DNA of 64,000 bases from Winogradskyella schleiferi. GTDB taxonomy: Bacteria > Bacteroidota > Bacteroidia > Flavobacteriales > Flavobacteriaceae. Both the position numbers and the translations under genes were made by a program. This document shows positions 4,849 to 55,770 of the stretch, in pieces. Each line of letters begins with the position of its first letter. Positions within the stretch are counted from its first letter, which is position 1. Under the pieces are notes generated by a model. It worked only from the letters and a program-made list of their open reading frames with translations. It was not told the origin of the DNA and did not search any database. Location: NCBI RefSeq assembly GCF_013394655.1, contig NZ_CP053351.1, forward strand, positions 4,194,001 through 4,258,000, given 5' to 3'.

Positions 4849-4874
4849 GCAACCTTTTGCATATAATTACATCT
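4849..4874 (+). promoter_or_regulatory. ECF-type promoter, GCAACC-N15-CATCT
   Basis: GCAACC (4849-4854) and CATCT (4870-4874) are separated by exactly 15 nt. The pair lies 27 nt before the ATG of the lipoprotein at 4902. The same two words with the same spacing occur upstream of the lipoprotein at 53147 and of a small peptide gene at 51580. The arrangement (AAC-containing upstream box, short downstream box) is typical of ECF sigma promoters; assignment to a particular sigma factor is inference. Confidence 0.6.
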
Positions 4875-4901
4875 TATAAGTAAAATCCAATTACTCAACA
4901 T

Positions 4902-50054: not shown

Positions 50055-51119
50055 TTAAGGATTTGAAGACTCAAAAATATTCCTCAAATCCTTTTTATAT
50101 GGTAAATGATCTGCGCGTCCTTTTTTGAAAATATCGTTACTATTCCCTTGACCTTTTCGTAATGCTTTTTGCGCTTCGTAAGGCAATCTATTTATGTCCA
50201 TGCAATTTGTAGAGCAGCAATTTTCCATTTTTTCTTTGCAGTCTTCACATTGGATGAATAATAGATGGCAAGCTTCGTTTGCACAATTGGTATGTAGATC
50301 TGCTGGTTTTCCGCATTGGTGGCAATTGGCAATGACATCTTCAGAAATGCGTTCGGATCGTCTTTGGTCGAATACAAAATTCTTACCAATGAATTTATTA
50401 TCCAAACCTTCGGCTTCAATTTGACGAACGTAATTTATAATACCACCTTCGAGCTGAAACACATTTTTAAATCCTTTATGCTTGTAATAGGCGCTAGCTT
50501 TTTCACATCGAATGCCACCTGTACAGTACATCACCAATTTTTTGTCTTCTTTGTGTTCCCTTAAGTCCTCTTCAATTAAGTCGAGAGATTCCCTAAAGGT
50601 ATCCACATCTGGAGTTACAGCATTTTTAAAATGACCTATTTCACTTTCATAATGGTTTCGCATATCTACCAAAACCGTATCGGGATCTTCAATAAGTTCA
50701 TTAAACTTTTCTGCGTTAACATGTATTCCTTTATTAGTAACATCGAACGTAGCATCATTTAATCCATCTGCCACTATTTTATTTCGGACCTTAACTTTCA
50801 GTTTTAAAAAGGCAAAATTGTCGTGCTCAATAGCAATGTTCAATCTTACATTCTCTAAAAACGAAATGGTGTCTAAGTGCTTTTTAAATGGTTCAAAGTT
50901 TTCTGCGGGTACAGATAGCTGGGCATTTATGCCTTCGTTCGCCACATAGATTCTTCCCAAGACCTCTAATTGATCCCAAGCAAGAAATAAGTGATTTCTA
51001 AAAATTTCGGTATTGTTGATTTTGGCGTACTTGTAGAAAGAGATGGTTAAGCGTTCTTTTCCCGCTTGTTCAATGAGTTCTGCTCTTTCCTTAGCACTTA
51101 AGTTATTGTACAGTTGCAT
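50055..51119 (-). CDS. trhO: tRNA uridine-34 hydroxylase TrhO (rhodanese-like)
   Basis: This 354-residue protein has an N-terminal ferredoxin-like domain (about 25-110), then a rhodanese domain with the active loop C199-TGGIR-C205 in LVMYCTGGIRCEKASAYYKHKG. A C-terminal Cys-rich zinc-like module follows (CHQCGKPADLHTNC..., nine or more Cys). TrhO forms 5-hydroxyuridine at position 34 of some tRNAs using O2. It is monocistronic. Confidence 0.92.
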   Translation of the reverse strand: MQLYNNLSAKERAELIEQAGKERLTISFYKYAKINNTEIFRNHLFLAWDQLEVLGRIYVANEGINAQLSVPAENFEPFKKHLDTISFLENVRLNIAIEHDNFAFLKLKVKVRNKIVADGLNDATFDVTNKGIHVNAEKFNELIEDPDTVLVDMRNHYESEIGHFKNAVTPDVDTFRESLDLIEEDLREHKEDKKLVMYCTGGIRCEKASAYYKHKGFKNVFQLEGGIINYVRQIEAEGLDNKFIGKNFVFDQRRSERISEDVIANCHQCGKPADLHTNCANEACHLLFIQCEDCKEKMENCCSTNCMDINRLPYEAQKALRKGQGNSNDIFKKGRADHLPYKKDLRNIFESSNP

Positions 51120-51196: not shown

Positions 51197-51342
51197 TTAA
51201 CCGTTATCAATTGACAATTAGTTGATAAATTATGTTCTGGATCTCAATAAAAAGTTTTTCTATAAAAATGAGCAACCCCTTATTAAACCTTACGCTCTTT
51301 AGATGCAAAGGTATTGTTTTTAGTGAAAAGGCTTGACATTAA

Positions 51343-51380
51343 TCACAAAAAAAGCACCTTGAATAATTCAAAGTGCTTTT
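51343..51380 (-). terminator. Terminator of the mini transcription unit
   Basis: AAAAGCACCTTGAAT (51350-51364) and ATTCAAAGTGCTTTT (51366-51380) form a 15-nt-armed hairpin with one mismatch. On the minus strand a T-run follows, so it serves a leftward transcript from 51580. Confidence 0.75.
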
Positions 51381-51466
51381 AAGATTAACTTATCAACCTA
51401 AAACTTAAACTAAAAGTTAATCTTCATGGGCTTGACAGTTACTGAGGGATTAATTCCAAATAGATC

Positions 51467-51580
51467 TTAAAATTTACTTGGTTTAACGGTAACTGAAACA
51501 CCTAATGTTTTACTAAAACTGTTGAGAAATAATTCGCTACTCAACTCTAAAGACAACTTTAGAGTTTTTAAGTAGCGCAT
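51467..51580 (-). CDS. 37-residue peptide gene with repeated tail
   Basis: ATG at 51580 encodes 37 residues: MRYLKTLKLSLELSSELFLN then SFSKTLGVSVTVKPSKF and TAA. The frame then continues without break for 18 codons, DLFGINPSVTVKPMKINF, to a TAG at 51410. The SVTVKP motif appears in both parts with five of six codons changed only at the third base, a mark of protein-level selection. It has an ECF-type promoter 31 nt upstream and a strong terminator downstream. The coding region can also fold (AACTCTAAAG/CTTTAGAGTT), so a dual or purely structural RNA is possible. No family is recognised. Confidence 0.5.
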   Translation of the reverse strand: MRYLKTLKLSLELSSELFLNSFSKTLGVSVTVKPSKF

Positions 51581-51611
51581 TTCATAGCAATTTTTTCCTT
51601 TTTCATTTAGT

Positions 51612-51637
51612 AGATGCAAAAAGTGTAAAAGGGTTGC
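51612..51637 (-). promoter_or_regulatory. ECF-type promoter, GCAACC-N15-CATCT (minus strand)
   Basis: GCAACC at 51637-51632 and CATCT at 51616-51612, with 15 nt between them. It has the same words, spacing and surrounding CCTTTT and TTTGCATCTA as the site at 53099. Confidence 0.65.
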
Positions 51638-52047: not shown

Positions 52048-53052
52048 ATGAGTAGTGAAAAAGATGCGAAATTAAAAGCTTTAAAACTAACTTTAGACAA
52101 GTTAGATAAAGCTTATGGAAAGGGAACAGTAATGAAAATGAGCGATCAGGCTGTGGTAGATGTAGATGCTATACCTTCAGGCTCATTAGGATTAGATATT
52201 GCATTAGGCGTTGGTGGGTATCCGAGAGGTCGTGTGATTGAAATATATGGCCCAGAATCTTCTGGTAAAACAACCTTAACCCTTCATGCAATTGCCGAAG
52301 CACAAAAAGCAGGTGGTATTGCTGCATTTATTGATGCTGAACACGCTTTTGATCGTTTCTATGCCGAAAAATTAAACGTAGATATTGATAATTTAATTAT
52401 TTCACAACCTGATAATGGCGAGCAAGCGTTAGAAATTGCGGATAATTTAATTAGATCTGGTGCTATCGATATCGTGGTAATTGATTCTGTTGCTGCTTTA
52501 ACGCCAAAAAGTGAAATTGAAGGGGAAATGGGAGATTCTAAAATGGGTCTGCACGCCAGATTGATGTCACAAGCGCTCAGAAAATTAACCGCTTCGATAA
52601 GTAAAACCAATTGTACGGTAATATTTATTAACCAATTACGTGAAAAAATTGGCGTGATGTTTGGCAACCCAGAAACCACAACTGGAGGTAATGCCTTAAA
52701 ATTTTATGCTTCTGTACGTTTAGATATTAGACGTTCTACGCAGATTAAAGATAGTGACAGTAATGTTAGGGGAAACAAAACCAGAGTAAAAGTGGTAAAA
52801 AACAAAGTTGCTCCACCATTTAGATTGGCTGAATTTGATATTATGTACGGCGAAGGCATTTCTAAAGTGGGAGAAATTTTAGATATTGCTGTAGAACATG
52901 ATATTATTAAAAAGAGTGGTTCTTGGTTCAGTTATGGAGACACCAAACTAGGTCAGGGACGAGACGCCGTAAAGATGCTCATTAAAGATAATCCGGATTT
53001 AATGGATGAATTGGAAGAGAAAGTGAGAGCTTTTATTAATGAATCGAACTAA
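52048..53052 (+). CDS. recA: Recombinase A
   Basis: This 334-residue DNA strand-exchange and SOS coprotease protein has Walker A GPESSGKT (68-75), Walker [25 protein letters not shown], the L2 loop [36 protein letters not shown] and a short acidic C-terminus. It is slightly shorter than E. coli RecA at the C-terminal tail, as is common in the phylum. A long AT-rich leader precedes it and a clear terminator (53060-53088) follows. No LexA-type operator was seen. Confidence 0.97.
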
Positions 53053-53098: not shown

Positions 53099-53124
53099 GC
53101 AACCCTTTTATGATTTTTGCATCT
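53099..53124 (+). promoter_or_regulatory. ECF-type promoter, GCAACC-N15-CATCT
   Basis: GCAACC (53099-53104) and CATCT (53120-53124), spacing 15 nt, lie 22 nt before the lipoprotein ATG at 53147. The ECF sigma gene lies downstream in the same direction, so this may be an autoregulated promoter. Confidence 0.65.
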
Positions 53125-53146
53125 ACAGCATAGAAAATATTATATT

Positions 53147-53560
53147 ATGAAAAGATATGCCCTTTTAGTCTTTGCTTTTATCTCATTGTTTACATCCTGT
53201 AGTCTTGACGATGACGGCACTAATTATTCAGGTACAGAGATTTTACCTATTGAAAGTGTTGTGATGCCCGAAAGTTTTGTTTTTGGCGAAACTTATGAAA
53301 TTGAAATCACCTATGTTAGACCGTCCAATTGTTATCAATTTTATAACTTTTTCTATGACATTGATGGAAATGAACGTACTGTTGCTGTAATCAATTCGGT
53401 TTATATTGATGGTACTTGTGTACAGGACCCAGAATCTGTTACTGTAACTTTAAATTTTATGGTCAATTCGAATGAAACCTATTTATTTAAGTTTTATCAA
53501 GGACATGATGAAGAAGGAGAAGATCAATATTATTTAGTAGAAGTACCTGTTGAGGACTGA
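53147..53560 (+). CDS. Small lipoprotein of the sigma-factor locus
   Basis: This 137-residue lipoprotein has Cys18 in SLFTSC, followed by SLDDDGTNY. The mature part looks like a single beta-sandwich with two cysteines (in RPSNCYQFY and GTCVQDPE) that could form a disulfide. The ATG at 53147 was chosen; the in-frame TTG at 53117 overlaps the promoter. It is followed after 56 nt by the ECF sigma gene in the same direction. Function is unknown; it may be a regulon member or a sensor for the sigma system. Confidence 0.75.
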   Translation: MKRYALLVFAFISLFTSCSLDDDGTNYSGTEILPIESVVMPESFVFGETYEIEITYVRPSNCYQFYNFFYDIDGNERTVAVINSVYIDGTCVQDPESVTVTLNFMVNSNETYLFKFYQGHDEEGEDQYYLVEVPVED

Positions 53561-53616: not shown

Positions 53617-54162
53617 GTGAGTTTAGAACAACTCATAAAAAATTGTATTAATCAAGATGCTCAAGCTCAAAGCCAATTATACAAGCAGTATGCAAGTAAA
53701 CTATTTTCGCTTTGTCTTAAGTACTCTAAAAACTATGCGGAAGCGGAAGATAATCTGCATGATGCATTTATAACTATTTTTAGTAAAATAGCACAATATA
53801 AAAATAAAGGGTCTTTTGAGGGTTGGCTCAAACGAATCGCCATGAATACAGCATTGCAACGCTACAGGGAAGATGTTGGTGTTTATGACATTGTTAATGA
53901 AGGTAATATTAAAGATGTAGAAGTAGATATTAATGAAAATGATGTTGGTATTGAGTACTTACTGAAAATCATTCAAGAGTTGCCAGACAGATATCGATTG
54001 GTATTTAACTTATATGTTTTAGATGGGTATTCCCATGTTGAAATTAGTGAGTTGATAAATATTTCAACCGGCACCTCAAAATCTAACTTAGCGCGAGCAA
54101 GAATGATTTTAAAAGAAAAGATAGAAGCCCATAACGCGACCCCAAATTCGCAGAGTTTATAA
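53617..54162 (+). CDS. ECF RNA polymerase sigma factor
   Basis: This 181-residue sigma-70 family protein has region 2 at about 25-85 (QLYKQYASKLFSLCLKY, AEDNLHDAFITIFSKIAQY, FEGWLKRIAMNTAL) and region 4 at about 118-172 (LPDRYRLVFNLYVLDGYSHVEISELI). There is no region 1.1 or 3, as expected for ECF types. The start codon is GTG (53617); no ATG fits. It is 3 nt before the membrane protein at 54166, the usual place for an anti-sigma factor. It is the natural candidate reader of the GCAACC-N15-CATCT promoters; this is inference. Confidence 0.92.
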   Translation: MSLEQLIKNCINQDAQAQSQLYKQYASKLFSLCLKYSKNYAEAEDNLHDAFITIFSKIAQYKNKGSFEGWLKRIAMNTALQRYREDVGVYDIVNEGNIKDVEVDINENDVGIEYLLKIIQELPDRYRLVFNLYVLDGYSHVEISELINISTGTSKSNLARARMILKEKIEAHNATPNSQSL

Positions 54163-54165
54163 ATA

Positions 54166-55770
54166 ATGGACGATAAAAAAAACATAGATAGACTTTTTCA
54201 AGAAAAATTCAAGGATTTTGAGATAGCACCTAATGATACCGTTTGGAATCGTATCAGCGAAAGTCTACCTAAGAAAAAGAAAAAACGACGGGTTATTGCA
54301 CTTTGGGGGCAACTTGGAGGCGTCGCAGCTGTAATTGCACTTTTGCTAACTGTTGGTGTTTCTCTATTTAACTCTGATGATAATAACGCTCAAGATTTTC
54401 CTGTTGTAAATACAGGAGATAACTCAGAAAAGACTAATACAAAGACGTCATCTGATGAAAGTCTAAATGAGTTGAATACTGCTGAGAATAACCATACTAA
54501 GGTTGTTGATTCAAACTTAGATTCAGAAAAAGAATCCAATTTGAAAAATTCTGATGATGATTCAACTCCAAAAACATACCCTTCGAATTCAAACCCATTA
54601 ATAAACCCTAACAATTCGAATCAAAAATCGAATGTAGTGGTTACTAATTCTAAGGTAGAAGAAAAAACGAAAGCTTCTCAAAAACGCAGAAGTCCATCAA
54701 CATTAGAAGATGAGCAGCATATCACAAAAATTGCCAATGAAACGAATTCTAATTCTACTTTAAAAACTGACGAAAAGTTACTCCTAGAGAAAAATGATAA
54801 GTCGTTGTTAAATGCAGAATCCGATAGAAAATCGGCAATTAAAAAGACCATTGAAGACCAAAAAACGGCTGTGGCAGATAATAAATCCTCAGAAAAAGAA
54901 ATATCTGAAAGTTTAAATTTAGTTACAAACAAAGCAGAAACTTCTGAACCTGAAAATTCACTTATTGAAGACCTCAAAAAAGAATCTATCGAAGCTGCTA
55001 TTGCAGAAAATAACGAAACTACAGATGAAGAAGAAAAAGAAGATGAACGAAACAGGTGGAGCATTGCGCCAAATGTTGCGCCTGTTTATTTTAGCTCTTT
55101 GGGTCAAGGCTCTTCATTGGACCAACAGTTTAACGACAACGCTAAAAGCAGTGACGTTAATATGAGTTATGGTATTACTGGTAGTTATGCTATTTCAAAG
55201 AAATTAAAAATTAGAGCTGGTGTTAATCGTGTAAACCTAAACCAAACCACTACAGATGTATTTGCTTTTACTGGGCCAGCAACAGCCGCAAGAGGTGTTG
55301 AAGCTCGATTCGGTAATATTTCATTTAGTGAAGGTGAACAACGCGTATCGCTTATGAGTTCTACATTGATGAATAGATCTTCTACACCAGAATTAATCAA
55401 TTCTAAAGTCGCGGGCAATATTGAACAAAAATTTGGTTTTATTGAAATACCTATTGGATTAGAATATGCCGTATTAGACAAAAAATTTGGGATTAACGTA
55501 ATTGGTGGTTTTAGCACCTTTATATTAAATGACAATGAAATTTATGCCGACGTTGATGGCACTTCAACATTAATTGGAGAAGCAAATAATATTAACGCTA
55601 CTAGTTTTAGTGCCAATTTTGGTTTGGGAATGGATTACAATCTTTCAAAACAATGGAATTTTAATCTTGAACCAACCTTTAAGTATCAATTAAACACATT
55701 TAATAATACCACAGGAGATTTTAAACCTTTCTTTGTTGGTGTTTATACAGGATTAAGTTTTAAGTTTTAG
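54166..55770 (+). CDS. Single-pass membrane protein with C-terminal beta-barrel-like domain, putative anti-sigma factor
   Basis: This 534-residue protein has a short cytosolic N-terminus (about 1-42; ends SLPKKKKKRR), a membrane helix (about 43-64), about 230 residues rich in Ser, Asn, Lys and Glu with disorder, then from about 300 an outer-membrane beta-barrel-type domain (APVYFSSLGQGSSLD, SYGITGSYAISKKLKIRAGVNRV, FKPFFVGVYTGLSFKF, closing in Phe). The N-terminal piece could bind the sigma factor encoded 3 nt upstream, as membrane anti-sigmas do. An inner-membrane anchor joined to a barrel domain would span the periplasm and is unusual. Confidence 0.75.
   Translation: MDDKKNIDRLFQEKFKDFEIAPNDTVWNRISESLPKKKKKRRVIALWGQLGGVAAVIALLLTVGVSLFNSDDNNAQDFPVVNTGDNSEKTNTKTSSDESLNELNTAENNHTKVVDSNLDSEKESNLKNSDDDSTPKTYPSNSNPLINPNNSNQKSNVVVTNSKVEEKTKASQKRRSPSTLEDEQHITKIANETNSNSTLKTDEKLLLEKNDKSLLNAESDRKSAIKKTIEDQKTAVADNKSSEKEISESLNLVTNKAETSEPENSLIEDLKKESIEAAIAENNETTDEEEKEDERNRWSIAPNVAPVYFSSLGQGSSLDQQFNDNAKSSDVNMSYGITGSYAISKKLKIRAGVNRVNLNQTTTDVFAFTGPATAARGVEARFGNISFSEGEQRVSLMSSTLMNRSSTPELINSKVAGNIEQKFGFIEIPIGLEYAVLDKKFGINVIGGFSTFILNDNEIYADVDGTSTLIGEANNINATSFSANFGLGMDYNLSKQWNFNLEPTFKYQLNTFNNTTGDFKPFFVGVYTGLSFKF

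Follow-up and report, generated by a model that had tools for sequence, protein, structure and literature searches.

Dual-function RNAs such as SgrS/SgrT combine, on one small transcript, a region for base-pairing with a conserved reading frame of very short length. Other regulatory RNAs act on small RNAs themselves, as the sponges or anti-sRNAs SroC, 3′ETS-leuZ and AgvB do, and in enterobacteria MicA and RybB are sRNAs dependent on sigma-E. VcdRP is a further dual-function RNA and encodes VcdP, a protein of 29 amino acids (PMC8672173). Two sRNAs described in Flavobacterium psychrophilum are closer in lineage, Rfp11 with an ECF-type (SM6) promoter and Rfp18, whose third stem-loop is described as a pairing region (PMC9723704).

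We analysed a 64,000 nucleotide stretch of the Winogradskyella schleiferi genome (the window) that carries, between recA and trhO, a small transcription unit which we consider a candidate RNA decoy with a decayed peptide gene (Table 1). A first-pass annotation of this DNA had named a promoter, a 37-codon frame, hairpins and a terminator, and every one of these features was found in the sequence. The frame (51580-51467, minus strand) has 37 codons and beyond its TAA no stop occurs until the TAG at 51410. SVTVKP is read twice in frame, as TCA GTT ACC GTT AAA CCA and as TCA GTA ACT GTC AAG CCC, with one identical codon pair and five that differ in the third base only, as had been noted, and the arms AAGATTAACTT and AAGTTAATCTT lie at 51424-51414 and 51391-51381. 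Folding of the RNA (51612-51340, minus strand) gave -73.8 kcal/mol compared with -47.3 ± 4.7 kcal/mol for shuffled sequences (z -5.6, 0 of 200 as good). The terminator hairpin is the sole terminator-like site between 50000 and 53000, a region in which shuffles gave 1.9 ± 1.4, so the call alone is not above chance. Rfam had no match in the window, and the six matches at E ≤ 1 at loci L140, L044 and L094 were all under the gathering score.

Table 1 Features of the recA-trhO locus and of its proposed partners. Positions are those of the window unless a genome position is given
Feature	Position	Strand	Basis or remark
trhO, downstream neighbour	50055-51119	-	name from the first-pass annotation
Sigma-A type box TACCTTTG, distinct promoter-like site for trhO past the terminator	51306-51313	-	TAnnTTTG consensus of PMC9723704
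Intrinsic terminator (hairpin 51380-51350)	51344-51380	-	each base pair present in at least 38 of the 39 sequences aligned
Inferred transcript, ~260 nt	51345-51605	-	start from promoter, end from terminator; fold z -5.6; 68/68 genus genomes match at E ≤ 1
Stem AAGATTAACTT / AAGTTAATCTT	51381-51424	-	fold; visible in the alignment, absent from its consensus fold
Peptide remnant 2, SNCQAHED-stop, other frame	51417-51443	-	homologous to SNCKADGG-stop
Middle hairpin CATTAGG..CAGTTAC / GTAACTG..AAGCCCATG	51425-51507	-	arms are the two SVTVKP copies; two-sided changes
37-codon frame of the first-pass annotation	51467-51580	-	unconserved, broken in the sister species
Peptide remnant 1, LGVSVTV	51485-51505	-	matches LGVSVAV of the 30-aa peptide family
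5′ domain hairpin GCGCTACTT...GTAGCG	51535-51577	-	fold; similar hairpins in single-sequence folds of close relatives L043-L050
Conserved 5′ block GGAAAAAATTGCTATGAAA (putative anti-seed)	51580-51598	-	complements the dnaJ-downstream sRNA linker perfectly over 19 nt
ECF-type promoter GCAACCCTTTT-N5-TTTTTGCATCTA, predicted to drive the RNA	51611-51637	-	promoter and 5′ block located in 66/68 genus stretches
recA, upstream neighbour	52048-53052	+	name from the first-pass annotation
Second copy of the promoter, heads the ECF operon	53099-53125	+	exact motif twin
Lipoprotein-like gene, first in the ECF operon	53147-53560	+	lipoprotein by eye; no Pfam match
ECF sigma factor, probably acting at both promoters	53617-54162	+	Pfam Sigma70_r2 5.9e-14, Sigma70_r4_2 6.2e-15
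Probable anti-sigma factor (role from gene position), C-terminal part outer-membrane beta-barrel-like	54166-55770	+	Pfam OMP_b-brl 6.2e-6, just under cut-off
Partner sRNA-like gene of the same genome, ~90 nt (L226, L305)	G000:C1:2862938-2863029	-	downstream of dnaJ; outside the window
Second short RNA (L234; also L231, L232, L233)	L234 = G000:C1 ~2653680	- (L234)	putative anti-seed and terminator

The unit is conserved throughout the genus and well beyond it. A DNA search matched it at E ≤ 1 in 68/68 genomes of the genus, the weakest best match (5.9e-6, G083) covering the promoter part only, and the terminator could be located in 65 of the 68 stretches fetched. With the first 66 nt as query 71 of 299 family genomes matched at E ≤ 1e-4, representing 53 of 203 genera (the genus of the window included); 68 of these genomes lie outside the genus and 65 of their matches span the 5′ block. 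recA and trhO flank the RNA on opposite sides, in divergent orientation, in 57/57 family loci from 43 genomes, and among the carriers of the locus is Tamlana (now Neotamlana) laminarinivorans (Flavobacteriaceae), with a RecA at 90 % identity. The sister species (G011) shows 96 % identity over the 300-nt unit and 93 % over 459 nt, with promoter, hairpins and terminator kept. The unit is a member of an RNA family located between recA and trhO and absent from the libraries searched. Compact forms of the RNA (L125, L129, L137, L139, L206, L208, L209) comprise the 5′ block and the terminator with at most a tiny MKF-like frame; in that of L137 ATA replaces the ATG in the 5′ block.

The promoter motif occurs exactly twice in the window, ahead of the RNA (51637-51611, minus strand) and ahead of the ECF operon (53099-53125, plus strand), compared with a mean of 0.00 in 100 shuffles, and is therefore above chance. 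This supports the independent ECF-type transcription unit that had been annotated; a sigma-70 scan, which returned 12 sites (shuffles 12.0), does not model promoters of this type. A divergent second copy was present at 34 of the 56 usable loci (of 57) as against 2 of 150 mononucleotide shuffles, a count made on 1.5 kb flanks that missed some copies, the window's own included. By the promoter it shares with the ECF sigma operon the RNA is a candidate member of an ECF-sigma regulon. Genome-wide, the pattern found 29 sites at up to three mismatches compared with seven for its reverse. Six of eight further sites with at most two mismatches precede genes that by eye are lipoprotein-, secreted-, SusC- or OMP-like, which suggests the envelope as signal and makes it likely that these matches represent an envelope regulon. 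Matches with up to two mismatches include positions 4849-4875 (plus strand) of the window and G000:C1:3353285, 657685, 1466822, 3459080 and 3995480. For F. psychrophilum a published map of start sites gives the YceA/TrhO gene an ECF-type (SM6) start (Table 2C of PMC9723704), which is independent support that at least one relative uses an ECF-type promoter ahead of trhO.

The RNA of other genera has a reading frame for a peptide of 30, sometimes 28, amino acids (e.g. MKFFKKTIVNNALGVSVAIHINSNCKADGG) with the pattern MKFFKK...LGVSVAVxxNSxCKADGG. A translated search identified the full-length peptide in 66 of 395 family genomes and 37 of 203 genera, with internal stops in none; that of Neotamlana laminarinivorans (NZ_JAJAPW010000002.1) reads MKFFSKTILTQTSDISITIVINSSCKADGG. 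Across 57 distinct 30-codon frames (58 of the 66 peptides, the eight 28-codon frames being left out) pN/pS was 0.49 overall, 0.59 for codons 2-10, 0.81 for codons 11-21 and 0.14 for codons 22-30. D28, G29 and G30 were identical in 57/57 frames with all four glycine codons in use. The low C-terminal pN/pS and the invariance of these residues over varying codons therefore indicate selection on the protein, and the 30-aa peptide is under protein-level selection in the relatives. The suggestion of a dual-function RNA made in the first-pass annotation is borne out to this extent, in that the relatives, in 37 genera, carry a conserved and selected frame. Stem GGNTAACTCG/CGAGTTAGTC of the peptide-coding RNAs (L113, L114, L118, L123 and others) starts at the stop codon of the peptide, and the short peptide-free RNAs (L129, L137, L139, L206, L209) retain the 5′ arm GACTAACTC and not the 3′ arm of that stem.

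Four of the peptides had no NCBIfam match at E ≤ 10 and three had no Pfam match above cut-off, the best being DUF6132 at E 0.057 for one peptide; CKADGG as a search term returned no paper from the open-licence PMC literature. Profile searches gave 14 matches at E ≤ 0.01 among 296 genomes of the order, five of them at E ≤ 1.1e-9 and all five in the same family, and eight among 296 genomes of the phylum, two of them at E ≤ 1.1e-9 and both in the family. The other matches were weak and mostly partial, and with at most 27 candidates scored per genome misses are possible. As judged by these profiles, convincing matches are limited to the family among the order and phylum genomes searched.

The 37-codon frame of the window is not this peptide. 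Nine of 68 genomes of the genus match the peptide profile, one of them weakly (8.5e-7), and the genome of the window is not among them. Fifty-six sequences of the genus are without the canonical peptide; the LGVS segment served to anchor 39 of them, and 17 were unanchorable. The first-pass annotation had made its peptide depend on an orthologous frame in close relatives, and what these show is a frame that in G011 is interrupted at codon 5 by a stop and shifted by one inserted nucleotide and, in 30 of the 39 anchored sequences, no ATG, GTG or TTG in the frame at all; six, including the window, have ATG and three have GTG or TTG. SVTVKP in the first segment is confined, among the 39, to the window and its sister. 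No conserved coding frame was thus found in the window itself, where the 37-codon frame is incidental.

What remains of the conserved peptide is split between two frames. LGVSVTV is read in one and the tail counterpart, SNCQAHED-stop, in another, and relatives show SNCKAHED, CNCEADED, SNCEADED or SNCEADVD at this place, each followed by a stop. The second SVTVKP of the window is an out-of-frame reading of codons that spell SNCKADGG-like tails in relatives, and the two SVTVKP copies resemble each other because both form the arms of a nearly palindromic, covarying hairpin. The protein-level conservation deduced earlier from the third-base differences holds for LGVSV, a remnant of a real conserved peptide, and fails for the 37-codon frame itself. 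Neither a 37-residue peptide with a repeated tail nor a longer two-repeat or readthrough product finds support.

This middle hairpin shows two-sided changes both in 37 sequences of the genus that have no canonical peptide and in 57 coding sequences. In the coding version pair 55-66 is AT in 24, GC in 19 and GT in 13 sequences and never AC (Fisher 1e-6), and pair 49-72 gives Fisher 5e-4 with two AC, compared with 0.5 and 0.1 for off-register controls, all of these values ignoring the relatedness of the sequences. Among the 37 sequences without canonical peptide, which were picked by similarity of the 5′ arm and exclude the unanchorable members of the genus, one stem pair is CG in 17, TA in 11 and TG in 6 and the next is AT in 20, GT in 8 and GC in 7. 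As the stem is kept by two-sided changes in peptide-free sequences, the RNA structure has been retained, where examined, though the peptide has not, and parts of the RNA stay conserved and covary after its loss.

Loss of the peptide is not peculiar to the window. In a motif survey the canonical peptide was lost from 56 of 65 sequences of the genus with the 5′ block still kept, and among nine loci surveyed in other genera L125, L129, L139 and others likewise have the block and no canonical peptide. A tree of TrhO from 73 loci (40 peptide-bearing and 33 peptide-free, labelled by hand) requires at least six changes, with the proviso that it is an unrooted tree of one protein made by a quick method. 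Peptide-free rows adjoin bearing ones on it, L116 being placed beside L210 and L125 beside L145/L146/L149, a pattern that suggests repeated loss of the peptide. In the lineage of the window the peptide gene has apparently decayed, with promoter, putative anti-seed, middle hairpin and terminator retained.

The best-conserved part of the RNA is its 5′ end, the block GGAAAAAATTGCTATGAAA. Within the genome of the window (4.56 Mb) AAWTTGCTATGAAA has just three perfect occurrences: one lies in the recA-trhO RNA, another in a second short RNA and the third opposite a partner sRNA downstream of dnaJ. In a complement search of four genomes of the genus the few sites with no or one mismatch were again the RNA itself, the second short RNA and the dnaJ-downstream site; a third class, of TTGCTATGAA sites, was rejected as lying, by eye, apparently inside conserved coding sequences. 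The dnaJ-downstream site looks like a putative small RNA gene of its own, with a sigma-A-type box TATATTTG, a 5′ hairpin with two-sided changes, a linker UUUUCUUUUUCAUAGCAAUUUUUU(U)CCC and a terminator. Apart from the number of Ts the linker TTTTCTTTTTCATAGCAATTTTTT(T)CCC is invariant in 19/19 aligned sequences, in part by selection of the sequences since TTCATAGCAA and CC belonged to the search pattern. All 28 family genomes tested have TTCATAGCAAT(5-8)CC outside the recA-trhO RNA, the context having been read in 15. The linker is present in 48 of 49 sRNA loci fetched, some genomes being counted twice, and each of the 48 also has a TAnnTTTG box and, upstream, the end of dnaJ.

A covariance model of the partner sRNA matched 45 of 296 genomes of the order, 44 of them in the same family. 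Many genomes of a large genus (g131) were without a match under strict filters, and we therefore term the sRNA widespread rather than universal. Another genus (g135) has two to seven matches per genome. Rfam returned nothing at E ≤ 1 for the loci of the partner sRNA and of the second short RNA, and no description of the recA-trhO RNA, the 30-aa peptide or the partner sRNA was found among the titles and abstract openings surveyed in the open-licence literature. The partner sRNA also occurs in genomes in which no recA-trhO RNA was recognised, so its main job must be elsewhere.

Pairing is predicted between TTGCTATG and its partner, within the first 60 nt of the RNA and the 90-nt dnaJ-downstream sRNA respectively. 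Duplexes of the first 60 nt with the linker reached -18 kcal/mol or lower in 93 of 95 RNAs compared with 41 of 2850 dinucleotide shuffles, and a perfect complement of at least 11 nt was present in 79/95 RNAs (16/95 falling below 11 nt) against 54/2850 shuffles. Of the 95 RNAs 65 come from the genus and 30 from other genera, for which 32 loci had been put in. The patterns used to excise them contained the block, which biases these rates upwards, though the loci themselves had initially been detected by similarity and anchored by synteny. All genomes were scored with two generic forms of the linker, and linker-only values were used since the energies of whole-sRNA duplexes (z -1.6 to -6.0) mainly reflect other stretches. 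As controls, 15 leaders of the twin-promoter operon (from 20 loci tried) had a median duplex energy of -10.2. Uninterrupted complementarity extends over 19 nt in the window; the medians of its maximum length are 16 nt within the genus and 11 nt elsewhere (lowest 6), and outside the genus GGGAAA forms a second pairing arm. The RNA thus bears extended complementarity to what, from its invariance, would be the seed of another sRNA. The second short RNA consists of little beyond block and terminator in the four of four genus genomes looked at, with predicted duplex energies of -26.9 to -32.8 kcal/mol and a promoter-like stretch, AAAACC...(A/T)CGTAAGTA, that is ECF-like and differs from the promoter of the recA-trhO RNA.

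We read the recA-trhO RNA, with a probability of about 0.6, as an ECF-driven decoy (sponge) of the dnaJ-downstream sRNA that doubles as a mini-mRNA in many genera. Upon envelope stress the sigma factor would transcribe its own operon and the RNA, whose first ~25 nt would be a dedicated anti-seed to the widespread family sRNA. Once both RNAs are made, pairing in the cell over up to 19 contiguous bp would draw the sRNA off whatever other targets it may control. In many relatives the same transcript would also be the mRNA of the 30-aa peptide, which presumably has a role of its own, and would thus be dual-function there. Among the points against a decoy are the pairing of part of the 5′ block in the predicted fold of the window's own RNA and the likeness of the A-rich start to ordinary start regions in this group, besides the short perfect matches of some RNAs, the presence of the partner where the RNA was not recognised, and further target sites at no more than control level. 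A wider form of this proposal, for which we would put the chances a little short of even, is a family-wide two-RNA switch in which one widespread sRNA is countered by several decoys, each under an envelope-stress sigma, with no fewer than two different promoters involved. The mRNA of the CKADGG peptide would be the origin, or a second role, of one such decoy, and in several lineages including that of the window selection would have retained the decoy and dropped the peptide.

The roles could be reversed, with the RNA as the target: the sRNA would bind the start of an ECF-driven mini-mRNA and block its translation, and the site in the window would be a leftover or serve RNA turnover. The block does contain AUG AAA, at which several genomes (e.g. 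L113-L115) start the peptide, and the sRNA linker covers this AUG and the A-rich stretch preceding it. However, the peptide starts further downstream at L118-L120 and L123, the block persists in the genus sequences and other loci that have lost the canonical peptide, and the second short RNA is block and terminator only. Regulation of this kind fits the genomes in which the start codon lies in the block better than those with a later start or no peptide, and we consider it unlikely overall.

An ordinary trans-acting sRNA, pairing with mRNAs through its 5′ block, is in our view an improbable reading; the dnaJ-downstream element would then be one of its targets or an antisense regulator of it. 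A mostly unstructured conserved 5′ end followed by a strong terminator is typical of such sRNAs, and six of 17 one-mismatch sites in the genome of the window lie, by eye, at plausible gene starts, a fraction that stands without a control. Against this, complementary sites are not enriched beyond the few strong ones (90 in a wider complement search compared with 103 in the control), and the dnaJ-downstream element, with a promoter box of its own and two hairpins, occurs also where the RNA was not recognised. A search for targets at start sites of the same genome gave 20 sites against 19 in the control, with one-mismatch sites at control level. The one-mismatch block-like sites at plausible gene starts (L338, L343, L345, L350, L351, L352) belong, by eye, to genes including those of a lipoprotein, secreted proteins and an ABC protein; these six are possible sRNA targets, their number not being above control.

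More doubtful still is a leader or attenuator of trhO, in which translation of the small frame would control the terminator ahead of that gene. The unit lies directly upstream on the same strand with the terminator in between, and the SM6 start assigned to the YceA/TrhO gene of F. psychrophilum (PMC9723704) is compatible with it; trhO, however, has its own sigma-A type box past the terminator (51313-51306), and almost every aligned sequence forms the pairs of the terminator. That the frame makes a functional peptide of 37 aa whose tail is repeated in frame, with readthrough perhaps lengthening it, is scarcely credible in spite of the open frame and the SVTVKP codon pattern in the window, given the break in the sister species, the want of a start codon in most anchored relatives (ATG in 6/39, the window included) and a repeat accounted for by hairpin arms and the ancestral tail frame.

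If the decoy reading is true, it would give the Flavobacteriaceae an sRNA-and-decoy pair under ECF sigma control, in a phylum whose post-transcriptional control has been little mapped. It would also add a conserved 30-aa peptide family with no Pfam or NCBIfam entry, and would offer a natural experiment on a dual-function RNA shedding its coding half.

With SgrS/SgrT and VcdRP (PMC8672173) the locus shares a layout in which one small transcript holds both a region for pairing and a conserved frame of very short length. Compared by description, it differs from both in that its pairing region complements another sRNA and that the frame has been lost, apparently repeatedly, with the pairing part staying. 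Like the sponges SroC, 3′ETS-leuZ and AgvB the RNA bears the complement of a putative sRNA seed, but unlike these it would be a stand-alone gene with an ECF-type promoter and, in relatives, an mRNA as well. The likeness to MicA and RybB lies in a small RNA apparently co-controlled with an envelope-type sigma operon; by description, the conserved partner is an sRNA here and OMP mRNAs there. Rfp11 and Rfp18 are flavobacterial sRNAs, the former with an SM6 promoter, and an SM6 start stands ahead of the YceA/trhO homologue as well; the dnaJ-downstream sRNA, with two hairpins, differs by description from Rfp18 with its third stem-loop (PMC9723704).
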